Virus record (IMG/VR): IMGVR_UViG_3300042863_001549
Location: 1-26,209 of that record
Length of the DNA stretch: 26,209 nt
Direction: 5' to 3' (one strand)
Source of the DNA: a virus
How positions within the stretch are numbered: the stretch's first letter is position 1; the number at the start of each line of letters is the position of its first letter. This document shows positions 11,517 to 25,830 of this stretch, one piece after another. The notes under the pieces are model-generated. The model had not been told where the DNA came from and ran no database searches. It worked only from the letters and a program-made list of their open reading frames with translations. The position numbers and the translations under genes are program-made.

Positions 11517-12710
11517 ATGGCATTAGCAAACGTAGCACTAACAAACACATTTGATGAATGGCGTACTAGAACGAATCAGTTGGTAGTTCAAAGTAATTTT
11601 TATGAAGTTAATTTGCCAAATTATACATATGCTAATAACATTGGTGTTCAAGCTAATGCTTATGCTAACATTATTGGTGTACAAGCCAATTCTTTCGCTT
11701 CTGTTGCAATAGCGAGTAATAATATAACAGTTGGTAATGGTGCTAATTCTTATGCTAATACTAATATAACAGCAGCCAATACATTCCTTAAAAATTATAT
11801 AGCTAGTTCTAACATAGCAGTTGGTCAAGGCGCTAATAACTTTCTTCTGGCTGTTATAACAGGCGCTAATACCGCAGTTGGCAATGGAGCTAATAATTTC
11901 TTTAAGGCCACAATGAATGGTGCTAACGCCGATGCAAGAATTGCAACAAATCTAACATCAGGCACTGTTCCATCTGCTCGTATAAGCGGATCTTATACCG
12001 GAATCACAGGCGTAGGCACAATTGATACAGGTACTTGGAATGCCACAAATATAGCTCTTAATAAAGGCGGCACAAACGCATCCCTGACCGCAAGTGCGGG
12101 TGCGGTAGCTTATTCTACCGCTTCTGCTCTTGCTTTAAGTGGCGTAGGCGCTTCTGGTTCAGTATTAACTTCAGCAGGAACTTCTGCTCCTACTTGGACG
12201 GTACAATCATCTTTACAGGTTGGCTATGCTACTGTAGCAGGATCTGCAGGTTCAGCAACAACGGCTGGTAGTGCTACTACTGCCGGCACTGTCACAACAG
12301 CAGCACAGCCAAGCATCACTTCAGTTGGAACATTAACATCACTTGCTGTATCGGGCGCTATAACCGCCGGCGGTGATATTACAGCATTTAGTGCTTCAGA
12401 TAAGAGATTGAAGACTAATATATCTCAGATACAAGATTCTCTTCACAAAGTAAATAGCATTAATGGCATAACATTTGATTGGAACGAAGAAGGTCAAAAA
12501 TCTCGTCAGTCGGAAGAAGAAGTTTTTGGTAATAGACGCGAAGCTGGTGTAATAGCTCAAGAGATTGAAGAAGTATTACCAGAAGTGGTAGTTACCAGAA
12601 AAGATGGTTATAAAGCGGTCAGATATGAAAAACTTGTTCCACTACTAATCGAAGCCATCAAAGAACTAACAGCAAAAGTTGAAATGCTAGAATCAAAAGT
12701 TGGAAAGTAG
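11517..12710 (+). CDS. Tail fibre with C-terminal S74 intramolecular chaperone (self-cleaving)
   Basis: 397 residues. Residues about 35-145 are alanine/asparagine-rich repeats with an 11-residue rhythm (ANAYANIIGVQ, ANSFASVAIAS), suggesting a right-handed coiled coil. Residues about 150-225 are the common fibre module with GTIDTGTWNATNIALNKGGT. The C-terminal domain is a peptidase S74 chaperone: SDKRLKTNI, GITFDW, AGVIAQEIEEVLPEVV, YEKLVPLLIEAIKEL. The Ser-Lys pair is intact (Ser294 and Lys299), five residues apart as in phage endosialidase. Cleavage is therefore expected before Ser294, releasing a C-terminal fragment of about 104 residues after trimer folding. The gene is 4 bases after the coiled-coil gene and 4 bases before the adhesin. 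Its ribosome binding site is weak. Confidence 0.87.
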   Translation: MALANVALTNTFDEWRTRTNQLVVQSNFYEVNLPNYTYANNIGVQANAYANIIGVQANSFASVAIASNNITVGNGANSYANTNITAANTFLKNYIASSNIAVGQGANNFLLAVITGANTAVGNGANNFFKATMNGANADARIATNLTSGTVPSARISGSYTGITGVGTIDTGTWNATNIALNKGGTNASLTASAGAVAYSTASALALSGVGASGSVLTSAGTSAPTWTVQSSLQVGYATVAGSAGSATTAGSATTAGTVTTAAQPSITSVGTLTSLAVSGAITAGGDITAFSASDKRLKTNISQIQDSLHKVNSINGITFDWNEEGQKSRQSEEEVFGNRREAGVIAQEIEEVLPEVVVTRKDGYKAVRYEKLVPLLIEAIKELTAKVEMLESKVGK

Positions 12711-12714
12711 ATAG

Positions 12715-13818
12715 ATGGCTACACCAGCATCACCAAATCCACTAAGTTTTAGTCAGATAAACACTGAAGTAGGAAATGCTTCAGGTGCCACACTCAATAT
12801 GGGCAATGCAAAACTTCGTGGTTTATTTCAAGACTTTTCAGGCGAGATTGCTATGTCTTCTGGTCGTGGTAGATCATGGCCGCCGCCAATGACTAGGTAT
12901 ACATCAAGCACTTCTATTTCAGTTCCTGCTGGAATGACAACTATGCTTGTAAAAGCTTGGGGAGCTGGCGGAGGCGGCGGTGGGTGCGGCTCTGGTAATA
13001 ACGGAAAAGGCGGAACAGGCGGTTCAGGTCCTTTTATGTATGTTTCTATACCCGTAACTCCGGGCTGGACGCTCTCTTTGACTATTGGTACAGGTGGAAT
13101 TGGAGGTCAACCTGTTACTGGAGCGATTTCTCCGTATGCAGCGGAAGGTGGTGGTGGCGGTGGATACAGTTCAATATATGTAGGTGGTACTGCTTTATTA
13201 ATAGTTGGCGCAGGCGGCGGCGGTGGAGGCGGTGGCAGTCTTAGCAACGATCACGGCGGATCAGGTGCTGGCGGCGGTACAACATCTACTTTTCCAAGTG
13301 GATTCGCAGGATATAATGCCGGAGCTGCTAGTGGAAATGCTGGAGGCGGCGGTGGCGCAACTCAAGGTGCTGTTGGCGCTGGCGGTAGTGGTGGAGATCC
13401 AGGCATTGCTGGTAGTGGTCAAAACGGTGGTGATGGTGGAAGTAATTCAACGCCCGCATCCGCCGGAGGTTCTCCTGGTGGCGGCCGCGGCGGCAACAAC
13501 GGCAACGAAAGTGGCGGCGGCGGTGGTGGTGGAGCTGGATATTTGGGCGGCGGTGGCGGCGGTAGAAATAATGCTGGCACTAATGGCGTTGGAGGTGGTG
13601 GTGGTGGAGGCGGTTCAAGTTATGTGGGAGGCGGTGTCACTATACTAACTCAAACACCCGGGAATAACGGTGGGTTCGGAGGCGGAAGTGTAAGTCCTCC
13701 AAGCAATACTGACACAGCTTATACTTATCTTTACGGCTACGGCGGCAGCGGATCATCACTTACTGCCGTTCAAGGTGGTGACGGATTCCAAGCAATGATG
13801 GCTATTGCATTCTACTGA
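12715..13818 (+). CDS. Glycine-rich adhesin-like protein
   Basis: 367 residues. Residues 1-50 (NPLSFSQINTEVGNASGATL, NMGNAKLRGL, SGEIAMS) are the 'SFSQINTELG' opening seen on many phage tip proteins. From about residue 65 there is a beta-strand lead (SISVPAGMTTMLVKAWGAGG) and then a long glycine-rich body with runs of 4-8 glycines (about 12955-13690), separated by short aromatic or Ala/Ser pieces such as YSSIYVGGTALLIVGAG. The end (GGDGFQAMMAIAFY) resembles the usual 'GGDG...I.F' terminus. By analogy with gp38-type glycine-rich adhesins of T-even phages, the body may form a polyglycine-II helix sandwich presenting receptor-binding loops. This is structural analogy, not demonstrated homology. 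The GGC/GGT runs raise local GC well above the neighbours. Confidence 0.75.
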   Translation: MATPASPNPLSFSQINTEVGNASGATLNMGNAKLRGLFQDFSGEIAMSSGRGRSWPPPMTRYTSSTSISVPAGMTTMLVKAWGAGGGGGGCGSGNNGKGGTGGSGPFMYVSIPVTPGWTLSLTIGTGGIGGQPVTGAISPYAAEGGGGGGYSSIYVGGTALLIVGAGGGGGGGGSLSNDHGGSGAGGGTTSTFPSGFAGYNAGAASGNAGGGGGATQGAVGAGGSGGDPGIAGSGQNGGDGGSNSTPASAGGSPGGGRGGNNGNESGGGGGGGAGYLGGGGGGRNNAGTNGVGGGGGGGGSSYVGGGVTILTQTPGNNGGFGGGSVSPPSNTDTAYTYLYGYGGSGSSLTAVQGGDGFQAMMAIAFY

Positions 13819-21133: not shown

Positions 21134-21814
21134 ATGGGTATCGCATATAATCCAAAAGTAGTTACTAATGGTCTTGTTTTTAATTTTGATGCTAGAAACA
21201 TCAAATCTTATCCTGGTACAGGAACTGCTTGTTATGATTTGGCTGGACAAACAACTGTTGGAGAAACAGTAAATTCTCCAACATTTAATGCAAACGGTTA
21301 TTTTTCTTTTGCAACTGATGACTATATTAGATTTCCAAACTCAACAGCATTAGATGTACAAACTTTTACTATTGAAGTTTGGGTAAGAACAAATGCAACT
21401 AGTCAAAATGGATTTTGGTTTGAAAAAGGCACTGTAAACAGTCAATATTCTTTGTTTCAGGAAGGCGGCGGCATCGTATGTAGAATTAATAATACAACAG
21501 GATCTGTTAATACTATTAATCCCGCAACAGCAACTTATATGAATACTACTAATTGGTACCAAGTTGTATTTACATTTACATCTGGTAGTCAAATTTGTTA
21601 TATTAATGCTGTACAAGTTGGGACCGGTACAACTGTAGCAACTCTTGCTACCAATACAGGCGGGATGTCTATTGGAGCATACGGTGGATACACTGGAAGC
21701 AGAGGTTACTTTTATAACGGTGATCAATCTATAGCAAAAGTTTATAATAGAGTTTTAACACCCAATGAAGTCCAACAAAACTTCAACGCAACAAGGAGTC
21801 GTTATGGAATTTGA
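21134..21814 (+). CDS. LamG-like (concanavalin jellyroll) protein 1
   Basis: 226 residues. The N-terminal motif (PKVVTNGLVFNFDARNIKSY) and the strand pattern FTIEVWVRTN, WYQVVFTFTSGSQICYINAV, SIGAYGG, IAKVYNRVLT are those of the LamG/concanavalin-like jellyroll superfamily, often glycan-binding. The C-terminal helix plus tail (VQQNFNATRSRYGI) is shared with the two paralogues downstream. This copy is the most divergent: DARNIK and CYDLAG replace the DAGNTK and WTDLSG of the others. The codons of the conserved tail carry AAGGAG and the ATG of the next gene, which overlaps by 11 bases. It has no fibre shaft of its own, so it is probably a tip protein or a free-standing receptor-binding subunit. 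Confidence 0.8.
   Translation: MGIAYNPKVVTNGLVFNFDARNIKSYPGTGTACYDLAGQTTVGETVNSPTFNANGYFSFATDDYIRFPNSTALDVQTFTIEVWVRTNATSQNGFWFEKGTVNSQYSLFQEGGGIVCRINNTTGSVNTINPATATYMNTTNWYQVVFTFTSGSQICYINAVQVGTGTTVATLATNTGGMSIGAYGGYTGSRGYFYNGDQSIAKVYNRVLTPNEVQQNFNATRSRYGI
21793..21798 (+). promoter_or_regulatory. Ribosome binding site AAGGAG that sets the start at 21804
   Basis: AAGGAG lies 5 bases before the ATG at 21804, inside the last codons of LamG protein 1. It favours this ATG over the in-frame ATG at 21765, which has no comparable site and would add 13 unlikely residues. Confidence 0.7.
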
Positions 21815-22061
21815 AACTAGACAATATGTAATCTTCAATGTATCGGAACTTGATAGCATAGACTTCTCACAAGTATTAGAAACAAGTGCTGATACTGTTC
21901 GTCGTTCAGTAGATGGAACACTAACATTCGTCAAGTGGGATGGTAATGTGCCACTATGTGTTGAGTCTCTAACAACCAAAGGTGAGTATTTGACTCACAG
22001 TGAGATCCTTGCTGAAATGAACACAGAAGCATGGACAATACCAATGTCAGAGGAAATGTAA
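21804..22061 (+). CDS. Small fibre-cassette protein between LamG genes
   Basis: 85 residues from the ATG at 21804 (chosen for the AAGGAG site; a longer frame starts at 21765). The sequence (MEFETRQYVIFNVSELDSID, FSQVLETSADTVRRSVDGT, TFVKWDG, LTTKGEYLTHSEILAEMNTE) looks like a compact alpha/beta protein. Similar short proteins ('YVIFNVSE.D.IDFSQV', 'KWDG..P.CV..L') accompany fibre genes in other aquatic phages as far as I recall. No function is known to me. It overlaps LamG 1 by 11 bases, and the next gene's GTG start follows its stop directly. A chaperone or adapter role for the neighbouring jellyrolls is a positional guess. Confidence 0.7.
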   Translation: MEFETRQYVIFNVSELDSIDFSQVLETSADTVRRSVDGTLTFVKWDGNVPLCVESLTTKGEYLTHSEILAEMNTEAWTIPMSEEM

Positions 22062-22718
22062 GTGGGATTAAGTCATTCACCAAAGATTGTTACTGACGGA
22101 TTGGTGCTGTGTTTAGATGCTGGTAATACCAAGTCGTATCCTGGTAGCGGAACAACTTGGACTGATTTAAGTGGTAATGCAAGAAATGCAACTAAAGGCG
22201 GGAGTCAATCTCCAACATATCCATTGTGGAACGCAGCTGGATATTTTGAGTTTACCGGAGGTGTCATCGCTGATAATTACAGTCGTTTCACAGTGACCAC
22301 CCCAACTATGACAGCCCTTACAGTTTTCACTTATCATTATTCCACGCAAGCCAGTGGGCATGTGCTGAGACACAGCACTGATTCTATGCAGATAGGTCCA
22401 AACGGTTACACAGCCGGACTTTCGTATAATGATGTGGCTTGTAGTCGATTAGATACTCTTAACACATGGGTCAGTGATGCACTCACTTTCAATGGTACAG
22501 TATTACGCGGTTATCGCAATGGAGTACAATACAGCACTACTACCAGAGGATCAACGGCAACCATAGCAGGTGGGACGCTGAATATTGGCTCTCGCAGTGA
22601 TAACTATCATGATCACTATGTAGGCAGAATAGCTATGGTAATAATATATTCAAAGGTATTGACGGCTGAGCAAATCCAACAAAACTTCAACGCACTTAGA
22701 GGAAGATACGGTATATGA
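22062..22718 (+). CDS. LamG-like (concanavalin jellyroll) protein 2, GTG start
   Basis: 218 residues. The GTG start at 22062 is supported by alignment of its first residues (MGLSHSPKIVTDGLVLCLDA) with LamG protein 1 (MGIAYNPKVVTNGLVFNFDA) and by a GAGG leader just upstream. The DAGNTKSYPGSGTTWTDLSG block is identical to that of protein 3. A typical jellyroll strand series follows, then the conserved ending IQQNFNALRGRYGI. The middle third (about 22260-22560) differs strongly from both paralogues, as expected for a specificity region, and parts of it are more GC-rich than its flanks. The stop overlaps the next ATG in ATGA. It is probably a carbohydrate-binding tip component. Confidence 0.8.
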   Translation: MGLSHSPKIVTDGLVLCLDAGNTKSYPGSGTTWTDLSGNARNATKGGSQSPTYPLWNAAGYFEFTGGVIADNYSRFTVTTPTMTALTVFTYHYSTQASGHVLRHSTDSMQIGPNGYTAGLSYNDVACSRLDTLNTWVSDALTFNGTVLRGYRNGVQYSTTTRGSTATIAGGTLNIGSRSDNYHDHYVGRIAMVIIYSKVLTAEQIQQNFNALRGRYGI

Positions 22719-23374
22719 GTGTATTTGCTGGACCAGAAATAGTTAATAGTGGATTAGTATTATCTTTAGATGCGGGCAATACTAAGTCATATCCAGGATC
22801 AGGCACGACATGGACTGATTTGAGCGGTAATGGGAATATTGGAACTCTCACAAATGGTCCAACTTATAGTAGTGTGAATGGTGGGTCTTTGGTTTTTGAT
22901 GGAGTTGATGATAAGGTATCAACAAACTATAAACCTTCCGGAGCAAGAAGTTATTTTATTTGGGTAAAATTTAACTCTCTTACCCATCCTTCTGGTTTTC
23001 AACTAACAGGAACTCAAGAATCGAATGCTTATACTTACATAGGAATACAAAATGGAGGAGATGTTTATTATTATGCTGGCACAGCCACTACTGGAGGAAA
23101 TATTGGAAATCCAGTGACAGTTAATACTTGGGTAAATCTCGGATTTGTTTTATTTTCCGATGGTTCCAGAAGAGTATATAAAAATGGTATAGAAATACAT
23201 TATAATACTGGTGGATTAGGAGGAACTGCAACTGCTGAATTTTCGGTAGGTTGTATTAATAATGCCTATAATGTAAATGGAAACATACCACAAGTTTCCA
23301 TTTACAGCAAAGCACTGACAGCAACAGAAATCCAACAAAACTTTAACGCTCTTCGCGGTAGATTTGGAATCTAA
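22715..23374 (+). CDS. LamG-like (concanavalin jellyroll) protein 3
   Basis: 219 residues, overlapping protein 2 by 4 bases (ATGA) with AGAGGA (22699-22704) as ribosome binding site. It starts MSVFAGPEIVNSGLVLSLDA and then has the same KSYPGSGTTWTDLSGNGN block. SLVFDGVDDKVSTNY and SYFIWVKFNS are classic LamG signatures, and the later strands include VNLGFVLFSDGSRRVYKNGI. It ends IQQNFNALRGRFGI. Unlike the two preceding copies, its last codons do not contain a Shine-Dalgarno or an overlapping ATG. They are instead followed by CTAAATAG. It is likely a glycan-binding subunit; the ligand is unknown. Confidence 0.83.
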   Translation: MSVFAGPEIVNSGLVLSLDAGNTKSYPGSGTTWTDLSGNGNIGTLTNGPTYSSVNGGSLVFDGVDDKVSTNYKPSGARSYFIWVKFNSLTHPSGFQLTGTQESNAYTYIGIQNGGDVYYYAGTATTGGNIGNPVTVNTWVNLGFVLFSDGSRRVYKNGIEIHYNTGGLGGTATAEFSVGCINNAYNVNGNIPQVSIYSKALTATEIQQNFNALRGRFGI

Positions 23375-23377
23375 ATA
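23371..23377 (+). promoter_or_regulatory. CTAAATA element before the second Gly-X-Y fibre
   Basis: CTAAATA overlaps the stop of LamG protein 3 (TAA 23372-23374) and is only 5 bases before the ATG at 23383. That is too near to be a normal promoter for that gene unless the message were leaderless. It is listed for completeness with the other CTAAATA sites. Confidence 0.12.
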
Positions 23378-23382
23378 GTAAC

Positions 23383-25830
23383 ATGGCCAATACATACAAA
23401 AATATAGTAATCACTCCAAATAGAGATACGGATGCAGCGAATGTTCCTTCCATTCGCTTTTCTGGTGGTGATGGAACTTCAAATACGGATATCAACGTAA
23501 GAGTATATACAACTCAAAGCGGAACATTATCTTTTGAAGGTTCTGCTGGCCAGTTATTTTCTATTACCAATGACCTGACAAATACAATCTTTTCAGTTAA
23601 TGACGTTTCAGGTATTCCTTCACTTGAAATTGATGCTGCTGGTTTAGTAAAACTAACTGAGTTTGGTGGTAACGTTGCTGTTGGTAGAGCTAATGCCACT
23701 TATAAAGTTGATGTGGTCGGCGGTGTAAATGCTAGTGCATTCTTTATCAATGGTCAGCCGACAAACATTCAGGGTATTCAGGGCCTTCAAGGGCGTCAAG
23801 GTATTCAAGGTACTACAGGATCTCAAGGCATTCAAGGCACATTAGGTCTCCAAGGTACTACAGGATCAACAGGTGGGACTGGATCAACCGGTCTTCAAGG
23901 CATTCAAGGAACAACAGGATCAACAGGTGGGACTGGATCAACCGGTCTTCAAGGCATTCAAGGAACAACAGGATCAACAGGTGGTACTGGTGGTACCGGT
24001 CTTCAAGGCATTCAAGGAACAACAGGATCAACAGGTGGTACTGGTGGTACCGGTCTTCAAGGCATTCAAGGCATTCAAGGTATTCAAGGTCGTCAAGGCA
24101 TTCAAGGAACCGATGGTCTACAAGGCCGTCAAGGCATTCAAGGCACTACAGGATCAACAGGTGGTACTGGTCTTCAAGGTTTTCAAGGTATTCAAGGTAC
24201 ATTAGGTCTTCAAGGCATCCAAGGAACAACAGGATCTCAGGGTATTCAAGGTTTAAGAGGTGCCTCTGATTGGACTCCAAACTTCTCTGGTGGTGTAACA
24301 CAATCATCATCCGATTCGTCTACATTTACTAAATCAACTGGTAATAATGCTGTTTGGGACGGTCAAGTATATTCCACACAAGGTTATGTGAGAGGCGCCT
24401 ACGCTACAGCAAGAGCATCAACGACTACTGCTCCTATTATGTTTGGTCTTAATTCTGACCCATCTACTGATGGTAATTATACAAGTATGGACTATGCGAT
24501 ATACTTTGTAGGTGACGGCACAATTCAGATTTATGAAAATGGATCACAAATTTCAACACATGGCGCATACACAACATCTTCAGTTCTCACAGTAACATAT
24601 GATGGTGTAAATGTTCGTTACTATAATGGTGCGACACTTTTAAGAACTGTTGCTAGAGCAATAGGAAATCCATTATATTTCGATAGTTCTTTCTACAGCA
24701 CAGGAACAAGTCTCAACTCTGTTGGTTTCGGTCCAATGGGTGAAAGTATTCAAGGCATCCAAGGCACATTAGGTCTACAAGGATTCCAGGGCATTCAAGG
24801 TACAACTGGTACTCAAGGTTTCCAAGGTATTCAAGGTACAACTGGCACTCAAGGTTTTCAAGGTATTCAAGGTACTACAGGATCAACAGGTGGTACTGGT
24901 GGTACCGGTCTTCAAGGTTTCCAGGGCATTCAAGGTCGTCAAGGTATACAAGGTGCAAATGGATTCCAGGGCATTCAAGGCACTACAGGATCAACAGGTG
25001 GTACTGGTGGTACCGGTCTTCAAGGGTTTCAAGGTACTACAGGATCAACAGGATCAACAGGTGGTACCGGTGGTACCGGTCTTCAAGGTTTCCAGGGCAT
25101 TCAAGGCTTTCAAGGCATTCAAGGTCGTCAAGGTATACAAGGTGCAAATGGATTCCAGGGCATTCAAGGCACTACAGGATCAACAGGTGGTACTGGTGGT
25201 ACCGGTCTTCAAGGTTTTCAGGGTATTCAAGGAACAACAGGATCAACAGGTGGTACTGGATCAACCGGTCTTCAAGGTTTCCAGGGCATTCAAGGCACTA
25301 CAGGATCAACAGGTGGTACTGGTGGTACCGGTCTTCAAGGCATTCAAGGAACAACAGGATCAACAGGTGGTACTGGTGGTACAGGTCTTCAAGGCTTTCA
25401 AGGCATTCAAGGGCGTCAAGGTATTCAAGGAGCCAATGGATTCCAGGGCACTACAGGATCAACAGGTAATACTGGTGGTACCGGTCTTCAAGGGTTTCAA
25501 GGTACTACAGGATCAACAGGATCAACAGGTGGTACCGGTCTTCAAGGGTTTCAAGGTACTACAGGATCAACAGGATCAACAGGTAATACTGGTGGTACCG
25601 GTCTTCAAGGCTTTCAAGGTATTCAAGGTATTCAAGGTCGTCAAGGTATTCAAGGCACCGATGGTCTTCAAGGTCGTCAAGGCATTCAAGGAACAACAGG
25701 CGGTACTGGTGGTACCGGTCTTCAAGGCTTTCAAGGTATTCAAGGTACAAGTGTTCAAGGCACAACTGGAACAATCGTCAGTAGTGCTAATGGTAGGTCT
25801 ATACTAATTTCAATGATTTTTGGTCGATAA
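23383..25830 (+). CDS. Second collagen-like tail fibre with jellyroll insert
   Basis: 815 residues. Residues 1-126 are an N-terminal domain common to aquatic phage fibres (YKNIVITPNRDTDAANVPSI, GQLFSITNDLTNTIFSVND, GLVKLTEFGGNVAVG). Residues 131-293 are about 55 Gly-X-Y triplets. Residues about 296-455 are a globular beta-rich domain (DWTPNFSGGVTQ, MDYAIYFVGDGTIQIYENGS, LTVTYDGVNVRYYNGATLLR) that looks like a concanavalin/SPRY-type jellyroll. Residues 458-790 are a second Gly-X-Y shaft of about 111 triplets. Its frame breaks once near the end (GTSVQG), and a short hydrophobic tail follows (SILISMIFGR). There is no strong Shine-Dalgarno directly upstream. The Gly-X-Y DNA contains perfect tandem repeats, so length is probably variable between isolates. 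It likely acts as a receptor-binding or spacer fibre. Confidence 0.84.
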   Translation: MANTYKNIVITPNRDTDAANVPSIRFSGGDGTSNTDINVRVYTTQSGTLSFEGSAGQLFSITNDLTNTIFSVNDVSGIPSLEIDAAGLVKLTEFGGNVAVGRANATYKVDVVGGVNASAFFINGQPTNIQGIQGLQGRQGIQGTTGSQGIQGTLGLQGTTGSTGGTGSTGLQGIQGTTGSTGGTGSTGLQGIQGTTGSTGGTGGTGLQGIQGTTGSTGGTGGTGLQGIQGIQGIQGRQGIQGTDGLQGRQGIQGTTGSTGGTGLQGFQGIQGTLGLQGIQGTTGSQGIQGLRGASDWTPNFSGGVTQSSSDSSTFTKSTGNNAVWDGQVYSTQGYVRGAYATARASTTTAPIMFGLNSDPSTDGNYTSMDYAIYFVGDGTIQIYENGSQISTHGAYTTSSVLTVTYDGVNVRYYNGATLLRTVARAIGNPLYFDSSFYSTGTSLNSVGFGPMGESIQGIQGTLGLQGFQGIQGTTGTQGFQGIQGTTGTQGFQGIQGTTGSTGGTGGTGLQGFQGIQGRQGIQGANGFQGIQGTTGSTGGTGGTGLQGFQGTTGSTGSTGGTGGTGLQGFQGIQGFQGIQGRQGIQGANGFQGIQGTTGSTGGTGGTGLQGFQGIQGTTGSTGGTGSTGLQGFQGIQGTTGSTGGTGGTGLQGIQGTTGSTGGTGGTGLQGFQGIQGRQGIQGANGFQGTTGSTGNTGGTGLQGFQGTTGSTGSTGGTGLQGFQGTTGSTGSTGNTGGTGLQGFQGIQGIQGRQGIQGTDGLQGRQGIQGTTGGTGGTGLQGFQGIQGTSVQGTTGTIVSSANGRSILISMIFGR
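23773..24267 (+). repeat. Gly-X-Y region 2a with 54-bp tandem repeats
   Basis: Residues 131-293, about 55 triplets. From 23863 there are four tandem copies of a 54-base unit (starts 23863, 23917, 23971, 24025), each six triplets. Copies 1 and 2 are identical; copies 3 and 4 are identical to each other over most of the unit. Confidence 0.88.
24754..25752 (+). repeat. Gly-X-Y region 2b with long direct repeats
   Basis: Residues 458-790, about 111 triplets built from GIQ, GFQ, GTT, GST, GGT, GLQ, GRQ and GAN. A stretch of about 100 bases is perfectly repeated (from about 24925 and from about 25114, 189 bases apart). The 17-mer GGTACCGGTCTTCAAGG occurs roughly ten times in regions 2a and 2b. Confidence 0.88.

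Follow-up and report, generated by a model that had tools for sequence, protein, structure and literature searches.

Codon usage in the C-terminal tails of phage LamG lectin genes and the translation signals of overlapping downstream genes

As a general rule the Shine-Dalgarno (SD) sequence of a closely following gene lies inside the 3' part of its predecessor, as described for 530 genomes (PMC2784483, 2009, where Eyre-Walker 1996 is cited), and the same source describes the SD sequences as concentrated 4–11 nucleotides (nt) before the start codon. Gene overlaps with the start codon at −4 or −1 are described as the usual coupled arrangement, in which termination is followed by reinitiation (Huber et al. 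2023, PMC10666635). The present analysis concerns the record IMGVR_UViG_3300042863_001549, a virus sequence of 26,209 bases which may be a fragment and which is called here, at its full length, the window. It carries three genes of LamG (lectin-like) tail proteins, LamG1, LamG2 and LamG3, whose last codons encode the motif R-x-R-[YF]-G. Throughout the text the positions of downstream starts are given relative to the upstream gene end, negative values being bases of overlap and positive values bases past the stop codon.

The explanation judged probable is as follows. Protein constraints would keep the C-terminal helix end [RK]-x-R-[YF]-G of phage LamG lectins, and this motif can double as an SD sequence because arginine may be encoded by AGA or AGG and glycine by GGA or GGG. 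Where the next gene starts at −11, −4 or −1, the synonymous codons and partly the middle residue would be selected to place the SD sequence upstream of that start, and the ribosome would terminate and initiate the next gene on the spot (translational coupling), while with the next gene further away the selection would be absent and the codons would follow the usual bias of the gene. The tail would also form part of a DNA joint, made up of the end of one LamG gene, the stop and start codons, and the head of the next gene, across which phages may exchange lectin cores with both reading frame and expression kept intact. This is a family-wide and unusually strong form of known dual coding, the position of the tail in a shared joint being the less expected part.

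The likeness to the rule described in PMC2784483 is that the SD sequence of the next gene, lying in the last codons, constrains the end of the upstream gene; the rule as given there is a genome-wide average over unrelated genes, while here one C-terminal motif of a lectin family is concerned, with about twice the rate of strong signals (70% versus 33%, see below) and with a shift of both register and residue. The coupling described by Huber et al. is similar in that overlap lengths of −4 and −1 dominate in the LamG family too, while the LamG coupling is deduced from sequence, the LamG1 overlap is 11 bases long, and the genes are divergent paralogues or unrelated rather than known subunits of one complex. 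The LamG family provides a natural experiment, in which the same motif occurs in hundreds of copies with or without the duty of a ribosome-binding site and selection on codons and on one amino acid becomes measurable.

In lambdoid phages the mosaic exchange of modules takes place at linker sequences, short conserved stretches at the module edges, and in one study on the shuffling of protein fragments in phage genes modules are reportedly exchanged within genes. The LamG boundary differs from such module exchange, since it also carries a coding end, a stop codon, a start codon and a ribosome-binding signal in an array of lectin paralogues. The same Laminin_G_3/concanavalin A-like domain with the C-terminal tail is found in the T4-like cyanophages S-SKS1 and S-PM2 and in Flavobacterium phage immuto, among tail-fibre or virion structural genes; in the tails found in S-SKS1 (three) and S-PM2 (one) the next ATG lies at least 12 bases past the stop codon, and in the one tail found in immuto the next start is at +1 without an SD sequence. 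A title-level search of the open-licence PMC literature found no paper on a LamG tail doubling as an SD sequence. If the joint is indeed used for exchange, arrays of presumed receptor-binding lectins could replace their variable parts and still be expressed, a point relevant to the way these phages change what they stick to.

Codon choice in LamG tails and the position of the next start

The discovery set was collected with a pattern neutral to arginine codons from at least 120 viral stretches, the confirmation set with further patterns without the R.R part, and a third small set with one more pattern. The confirmation loci were kept apart by their sequence context rather than by contig, so that a small number of them (e.g., L171 and L041) come from contigs which had been sampled before. 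In 553 of 576 places the protein end was found no more than 17 residues from the start of the anchor QN[FY][N/D/E]A, therefore the motif is nearly always C-terminal. As downstream start the first ATG giving at least 45 codons was taken, or at least 20 codons if the open reading frame (ORF) leaves the locus, a rule blind to SD sequences, and SD potential was calculated as the energy of the duplex which the 16S tail forms with the five motif codons. Starts at −4 or −1 follow 199 of the 553 family tails, and 117 of these 199 downstream ORFs were identified as LamG by blastp, the LamG N-terminus typically lying at the called ATG in the listed loci. By eye, the next protein usually begins with MS after ATGA overlaps and with MG or MA after TAATGG; thus the type of overlap also limits which residue comes second in that protein.

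The main comparison was made within 288 distinct R.R[YF]G tails and opposed 113 tails with a start at −4/−1 to 139 tails without overlap (next ATG no nearer than +8, or absent), omitting 22 tails with an ATG at 0 to +7, 12 with a start at −11, and 2 unclassified. The overlapping tails were much more SD-like, with −8.87 kcal/mol (n=66) versus −4.41 (n=78) in the discovery set (p=9e-15), −8.91 (n=47) versus −5.02 (n=61) in the confirmation set (p=6e-11), and −8.24 (n=21) versus −3.68 (n=19) in the third set (p=3e-5); the pooled R.R values are about −8.9 and −4.7 kcal/mol. The first-pass annotation of the window had proposed a survey of codon choice in R.R[YF]G tails against downstream overlap and would have given up its idea on finding AGGAG codons unrelated to overlap; the outcome was strongly positive, and it was replicated in both later sets.

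The difference was kept when only R-G-R tails, with the same middle residue, were compared (61 versus 45 tails, p=1e-8; 43 versus 38 tails, p=1e-6). With a wider tail definition the middle residue and second arginine are encoded by GGR AGG in 74 of 132 overlapping tails and in 18 of 158 others, and AGG, which accounts for 9.5% of arginine codons in LamG bodies, occupies the second tail arginine in 66/105 overlapping tails versus 29/125 without overlap. The use of AGA/AGG at the first arginine was not clearly associated with overlap (35/61 versus 17/45, p=0.05; 31/43 versus 23/38, p=0.35), as predicted from its distance to the −4/−1 starts. AGA GGx at the first arginine is a background signal in all classes, which makes a positional profile uninformative, and the register was analysed instead.

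In a synonymous null based on the codon usage of each gene the overlapping tails have a percentile of 0.151 (n=113, p=3e-18), while the tails without overlap are neutral (0.494, n=139, p=0.12); the class with a start at 0 to +7 was likewise not different from its own codon usage (0.392, n=22, p=0.42). At loci which contain both kinds the overlapping tail was stronger in 31 of 35 cases, equal in 3, and weaker in 1. Among 44 discordant pairs of nearest relatives (sister pairs) it was stronger in 34 and equal in 2, and among the pairs of at least 60% identity it was stronger in 8 of 11, with 2 against. One random tail per locus, drawn 200 times, gave a median p of 8e-20 and a largest p of 2e-16.

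The register of the signal follows the start. With a start at −11, where the ATG lies in TAT GG, AGG is found at the first arginine in 7 of 12 tails and at the second in none of them, while with a start at −4/−1 the corresponding counts are 4/113 and 71/113. The pair AGG AGY (Arg-Ser), which brings the SD sequence one codon earlier, occurs in 6 of the 12 tails of the −11 class. The aligned spacing from SD to ATG is 4–5 nt for starts at −11; for starts at −4 the commonest values are 8 and 12, and for starts at −1 they are 11 and 15.

The middle residue shifts as well. Glycine stands between the arginines in 120/132 overlapping versus 96/158 other tails (p=2.5e-9), and serine in 6/12 tails of the −11 class, in 2/113 of the −4/−1 classes, and in 22/139 of the others. 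The glycine preference was not significant in the third set (17/21 versus 11/19, p=0.17), and in the comparison within loci ties prevailed (23 of 31, with more glycine in 7 and less in 1).

The tails of the window and the DNA joint

The signals at the gene ends in the window, read from the sequence, are the following.

21793..21798, plus strand: AAGGAG, Shine-Dalgarno-like signal with a spacer of 5 nt to the ATG at 21804
21794..21808, plus strand: LamG1 tail codons AGG AGT CGT TAT GGA (R S R Y G)
22049..22054, plus strand: AGAGGA at the end of the 85-residue gene, 7 nt before the LamG2 GTG (TAAGTG)
22698..22703, plus strand: AGAGGA, weak SD candidate 11 nt before the ATG at 22715
22698..22712, plus strand: LamG2 tail codons AGA GGA AGA TAC GGT (R G R Y G)
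23354..23368, plus strand: LamG3 tail codons CGC GGT AGA TTT GGA (R G R F G), without an SD-like signal

LamG1 ends in ACA AGG AGT CGT TAT GGA ATT TGA and is followed by the gene of an 85-residue protein; the SD spacing of 5 nt lies within the 4–11 nt expected of a coupled pair, the start being at −11 and not at −4/−1, and the same AAGGAG layout occurs in L053, L081, L091, and L200. LamG2 ends in CTT AGA GGA AGA TAC GGT ATA TGA, and LamG3 starts at −4 (ATGA), the usual position in a coupled pair, with an SD spacing beyond that range. LamG3 ends in CTT CGC GGT AGA TTT GGA ATC TAA, and its next ATG is at +8 rather than at −4/−1. The first-pass statement that the tail codons of LamG1 and LamG2 hold AAGGAG and AGAGGA before an ATG overlapping by 11 and 4 bases agrees with the sequence, the LamG2 signal being weak. 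The same annotation correctly gave LamG3 no overlapping gene and other codons for the same residues, these being CGC GGT AGA, but LamG3 cannot be said to have "lost" the signals, since in the relative L011 the same gene follows, again at +8, a tail written AGA GGA AGA. An SD sequence in the end of the upstream gene is not confined to LamG, because the 85-residue gene also ends in AGAGGA. The three copies of the window alone would prove nothing; it is as a family-wide association that the pattern goes beyond chance.

Two blocks of the window are shared with the related locus L081.

21752..22176, plus strand: joint block from the final 21 LamG1 codons (counting the stop) through the 85-residue gene to LamG2 codon 38; identity to L081 95%
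23312..23698, plus strand: joint block from the final 21 LamG3 codons (counting the stop) into the first part of the collagen-like gene; identity to L081 87.6%

Beside the 95% identical joint the LamG1 and LamG2 cores of the window and L081 have only 28–29% amino acid identity, and at the LamG3 joint the core identity is 37%, so that DNA of high identity is flanked by unlike sequence of the same genes. Core identity was measured for the window against L081, L133, L209, and L053 only, with high-identity joints in L081 and L133; in L133 the same break occurs at LamG2 codon 38, with a core identity of 27%. Joint-only blocks of 209–227 bp and 92–98% identity, ending within both flanking genes, are shared by the pairs L145/L204, L223/L287, and L068/L265; that of L145/L204 (209 bp, 97.6%) extends from 59 nt before the LamG stop codon to 114 nt into the next LamG.

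The ends of blocks with at least 90% identity fall within 30–80% of the gene length in 0 of 34 cases for LamG genes versus 16 of 41 for other ORFs, the 34 ends coming from 21 locus pairs and not all being independent. LamG paralogues of one phage also share codons at identical residues more often than cross-locus pairs, by +0.11 to +0.14 in about 50 N-terminal and about 24 C-terminal residues and by 0 to +0.07 in the middle, a comparison matched for conservation only. In L133, at 11624-12818, a LamG end with the start of a collagen-like gene is present in two copies, which looks like the insertion or duplication of a LamG gene at this joint.

These data suggest that lectin cores are swapped while the SD sequence stays with the downstream gene, most clearly in the window versus L081, that homologous recombination within the joint would make the swaps, and that the joint likely has a role as an exchange joint. 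The first-pass annotation had regarded the tail as a way to append new genes after any LamG copy; the best case reverses this picture, for in the window versus L081 the tail with the SD sequence remains linked to the gene that follows, and it is the upstream core that differs (L133, described below, is an exception). A broader proposal is plausible enough to be made tentatively, while falling a little short of probable: the joint of about 200–230 bp, a size taken from the three joint-only block pairs, may be a portable expression-and-recombination element that comprises the required helix end, the SD sequence tuned to the next start, the overlapping stop and start codons, and a conserved N-terminal segment, provides homology for swapping, inserting or deleting cores, and lets the needs of the messenger RNA (mRNA) choose an amino acid of the lectin (glycine at −4/−1, often serine at −11).

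Proposed codon selection and its alternatives

Several observations weigh against tuned tails in an exchange joint. The LamG2 signal is weak, since its second arginine codon is AGA without the GGAG core and the AGGAGG-aligned spacing is 12, outside 4–11 nt; the aligned spacing of 11 found in the −1 class is a borderline value, with part of the cores aligned at 12 or 15. No SD core is present in 7/60 (−4) and 10/53 (−1) overlapping R.R tails, 17/113 in total, and in K.R tails with overlap the likeness to an SD sequence is slight (−4.60, n=56, versus −3.34, n=73 without overlap). The −11 class is too small to stand apart from the codon usage of its genes (percentile 0.288, n=12, p=0.09), 8 of the 44 sister pairs go the wrong way, and before a LamG downstream gene the difference was not significant (−8.72, n=66, versus −6.20 in only 4 non-overlapping tails, p=0.096). 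A crude per-locus SD index of the other genes did not predict the SD strength of the tails (rho −0.20, p=0.07). As for the joint, L133 LamG1 compared with the window DNA has a core identity of 91% and a tail identity of 82%; therefore the tail and the downstream gene do not always move together. Fast divergence of the LamG middle could contribute to the block ends and to the paralogue pattern, while a core identity of 28% beside 95% identical DNA is hard to explain in this way.

Hosts of the phylum Bacteroidota use SD sequences little. The control junctions from such a background, that of immuto and those of L418 from a Flavobacteriaceae bin (−6.2 and −2.4), go in the expected direction and are too few, and in a scan of 395 Bacteroidota genomes a match was obtained in 1 only, the same Flavobacteriaceae bin. 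Separately, K.R tails with the next ATG at 0 to +7 (n=35) were seen to lack SD sequences (mean −2.19 kcal/mol), and, as a guess, these may come from phages of low-SD hosts such as Bacteroidota.

The competing explanation that survives best, a serious possibility even if doubtful, is that only the ordinary rule is at work, i.e., any close successor start puts its SD sequence into the last codons and the LamG motif is nothing special. The rule is published for 530 genomes (PMC2784483), the 85-residue gene of the window follows it with the AGAGGA before the LamG2 GTG, and 33% of 298 other overlapping pairs from the same loci reach −6 kcal/mol or better. LamG tails, however, reach this level in 70% of 182 pairs, a contrast that is if anything conservative because the control holds some LamG ends without the anchor. 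The same motif positions moreover switch register with the start, the middle residue changes too, and the shared joint goes beyond the rule.

Shared ancestry would account for the association if overlapping junctions went back to a single ancestral joint with AGAGGGAGG, or to a small number of such joints, and the remaining ones had another origin, the codons being inherited and not selected. Some joints are indeed common to phages at 90% identity or more, and paralogues within one phage share codons more at their ends than in their middles. This explanation is nevertheless unlikely, as the effect is kept before non-LamG downstream genes (−9.12, n=47, versus −4.57, n=119), the same outcome is reached via different codons (CGT GGG AGG, AGA GGG AGG, and CGA GGA AGG), the sister-pair and one-tail-per-locus tests hold, and three start positions have matching registers. 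These tests separate selection from shared descent of the joints in part only.

It is very improbable that pausing at rare codons or purine runs near the stop codon, and not SD pairing, promotes re-initiation. AGG and GGG (7.6% of glycine codons in LamG bodies) are both rare and both enriched at overlaps; however, the common codon GGA is used in 47 of 118 overlapping R-G-R[YF] tails, the rare CGG is not enriched (1/65 at each arginine in overlapping tails), and the AGG AGY pair of the −11 class stands one codon earlier, as SD spacing demands. That ATGs within ATATGA and TAATGG were merely called as starts whatever the codons, which the calling by ORF length alone would allow and which probably happened in at least one −11 call (L042, as L044 and L108 share an ATG at +31), has a negligible probability as a source of the association, because the calls are blind to SD sequences, 117 of the 199 −4/−1 downstream ORFs are LamG, miscalls would weaken and not create the association, and the confirmation and third sets, the own-codon null and the pair tests disfavour it.

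Codons tuned in a protein-kept tail thus remain the favoured explanation. The codon association, its replicates, the shift of register with the start, and the joints shared between differing cores are properties of the sequences themselves, and they point to an SD sequence that is bound, to genes that are coupled, and to codons that are selected rather than inherited.

The lectin domain and the neighbouring genes

The motif is a protein feature exploited by the mRNA signal and is independent of coupling, since uncoupled genes keep it and it sits in a confident predicted helix. In uncoupled 12-residue tails R or K is found at the first position in 230/233 and R at the second in 213/233, which rules out the nucleotide signal as the cause of motif conservation. 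The first-pass view that protein motif and coupling are joined holds for the synonymous codons and the middle residue, which change with coupling, but not for the motif itself. In the AlphaFold2 model of LamG3 (64-sequence alignment), with a mean predicted local distance difference test (pLDDT) value of 88.8, the motif ends the C-terminal helix 203–217, with block pLDDT values of 93–98. The model has a jelly-roll fold; in the PDB it is best matched by arabinanase AbnA and trans-sialidase chains, with a TM score to the query of at most 0.73, and among its top viral structure matches many bear the name of a concanavalin A-like or LamG-like protein. The structure and sequence matches to clostridial toxin binding domains, like a Pfam hit of LamG1 below the threshold, are due to the lectin fold that these proteins have in common and carry no information on toxicity. 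Locus L203 was considered as a non-LamG gene that had borrowed the tail, which was ruled out by reading, as the translation of the upstream ORF looks like a divergent LamG.

The genes of the array and its downstream neighbour are located as follows.

21134..21814, plus strand: LamG1, gene of a 226-residue lectin-like (LamG) tail protein (Pfam Laminin_G_3, E 2.7e-20)
21804..22061, plus strand: gene of an 85-residue protein (ORF), overlapping LamG1 by 11 bases
22062..22718, plus strand: LamG2, gene of a 218-residue LamG protein with a GTG start (Pfam Laminin_G_3, E 2.2e-12)
22715..23374, plus strand: LamG3, gene of a 219-residue LamG protein (Pfam Laminin_G_3, E 1.3e-11), overlapping LamG2 by 4 bases (ATGA)
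23383..25830, plus strand: collagen-like tail gene (ORF), its ATG 8 bases past the LamG3 stop codon

With Laminin_G_3 (PF13385) LamG1, LamG2 and LamG3 score 73.5, 47.8, and 45.3 bits, all above the cut-off of 27.6. The upstream part of the window contains baseplate-wedge-like genes, and collagen-like tail genes are also present; between two of these the order is a 70-residue ORF, LamG1, the 85-residue gene, LamG2, and LamG3, the second collagen-like gene being that at 23383. The frame of the 85-residue gene begins at an earlier ATG in the ORF list, and its start was taken as 21804. Its product had no Pfam or PHROG match at the limits used, has relatives in the phages S-SKS1 and immuto (6 records), and may serve the lectin array as an accessory or assembly protein. 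Several of its relatives in the fetched contigs were observed to start within the end of a LamG gene.

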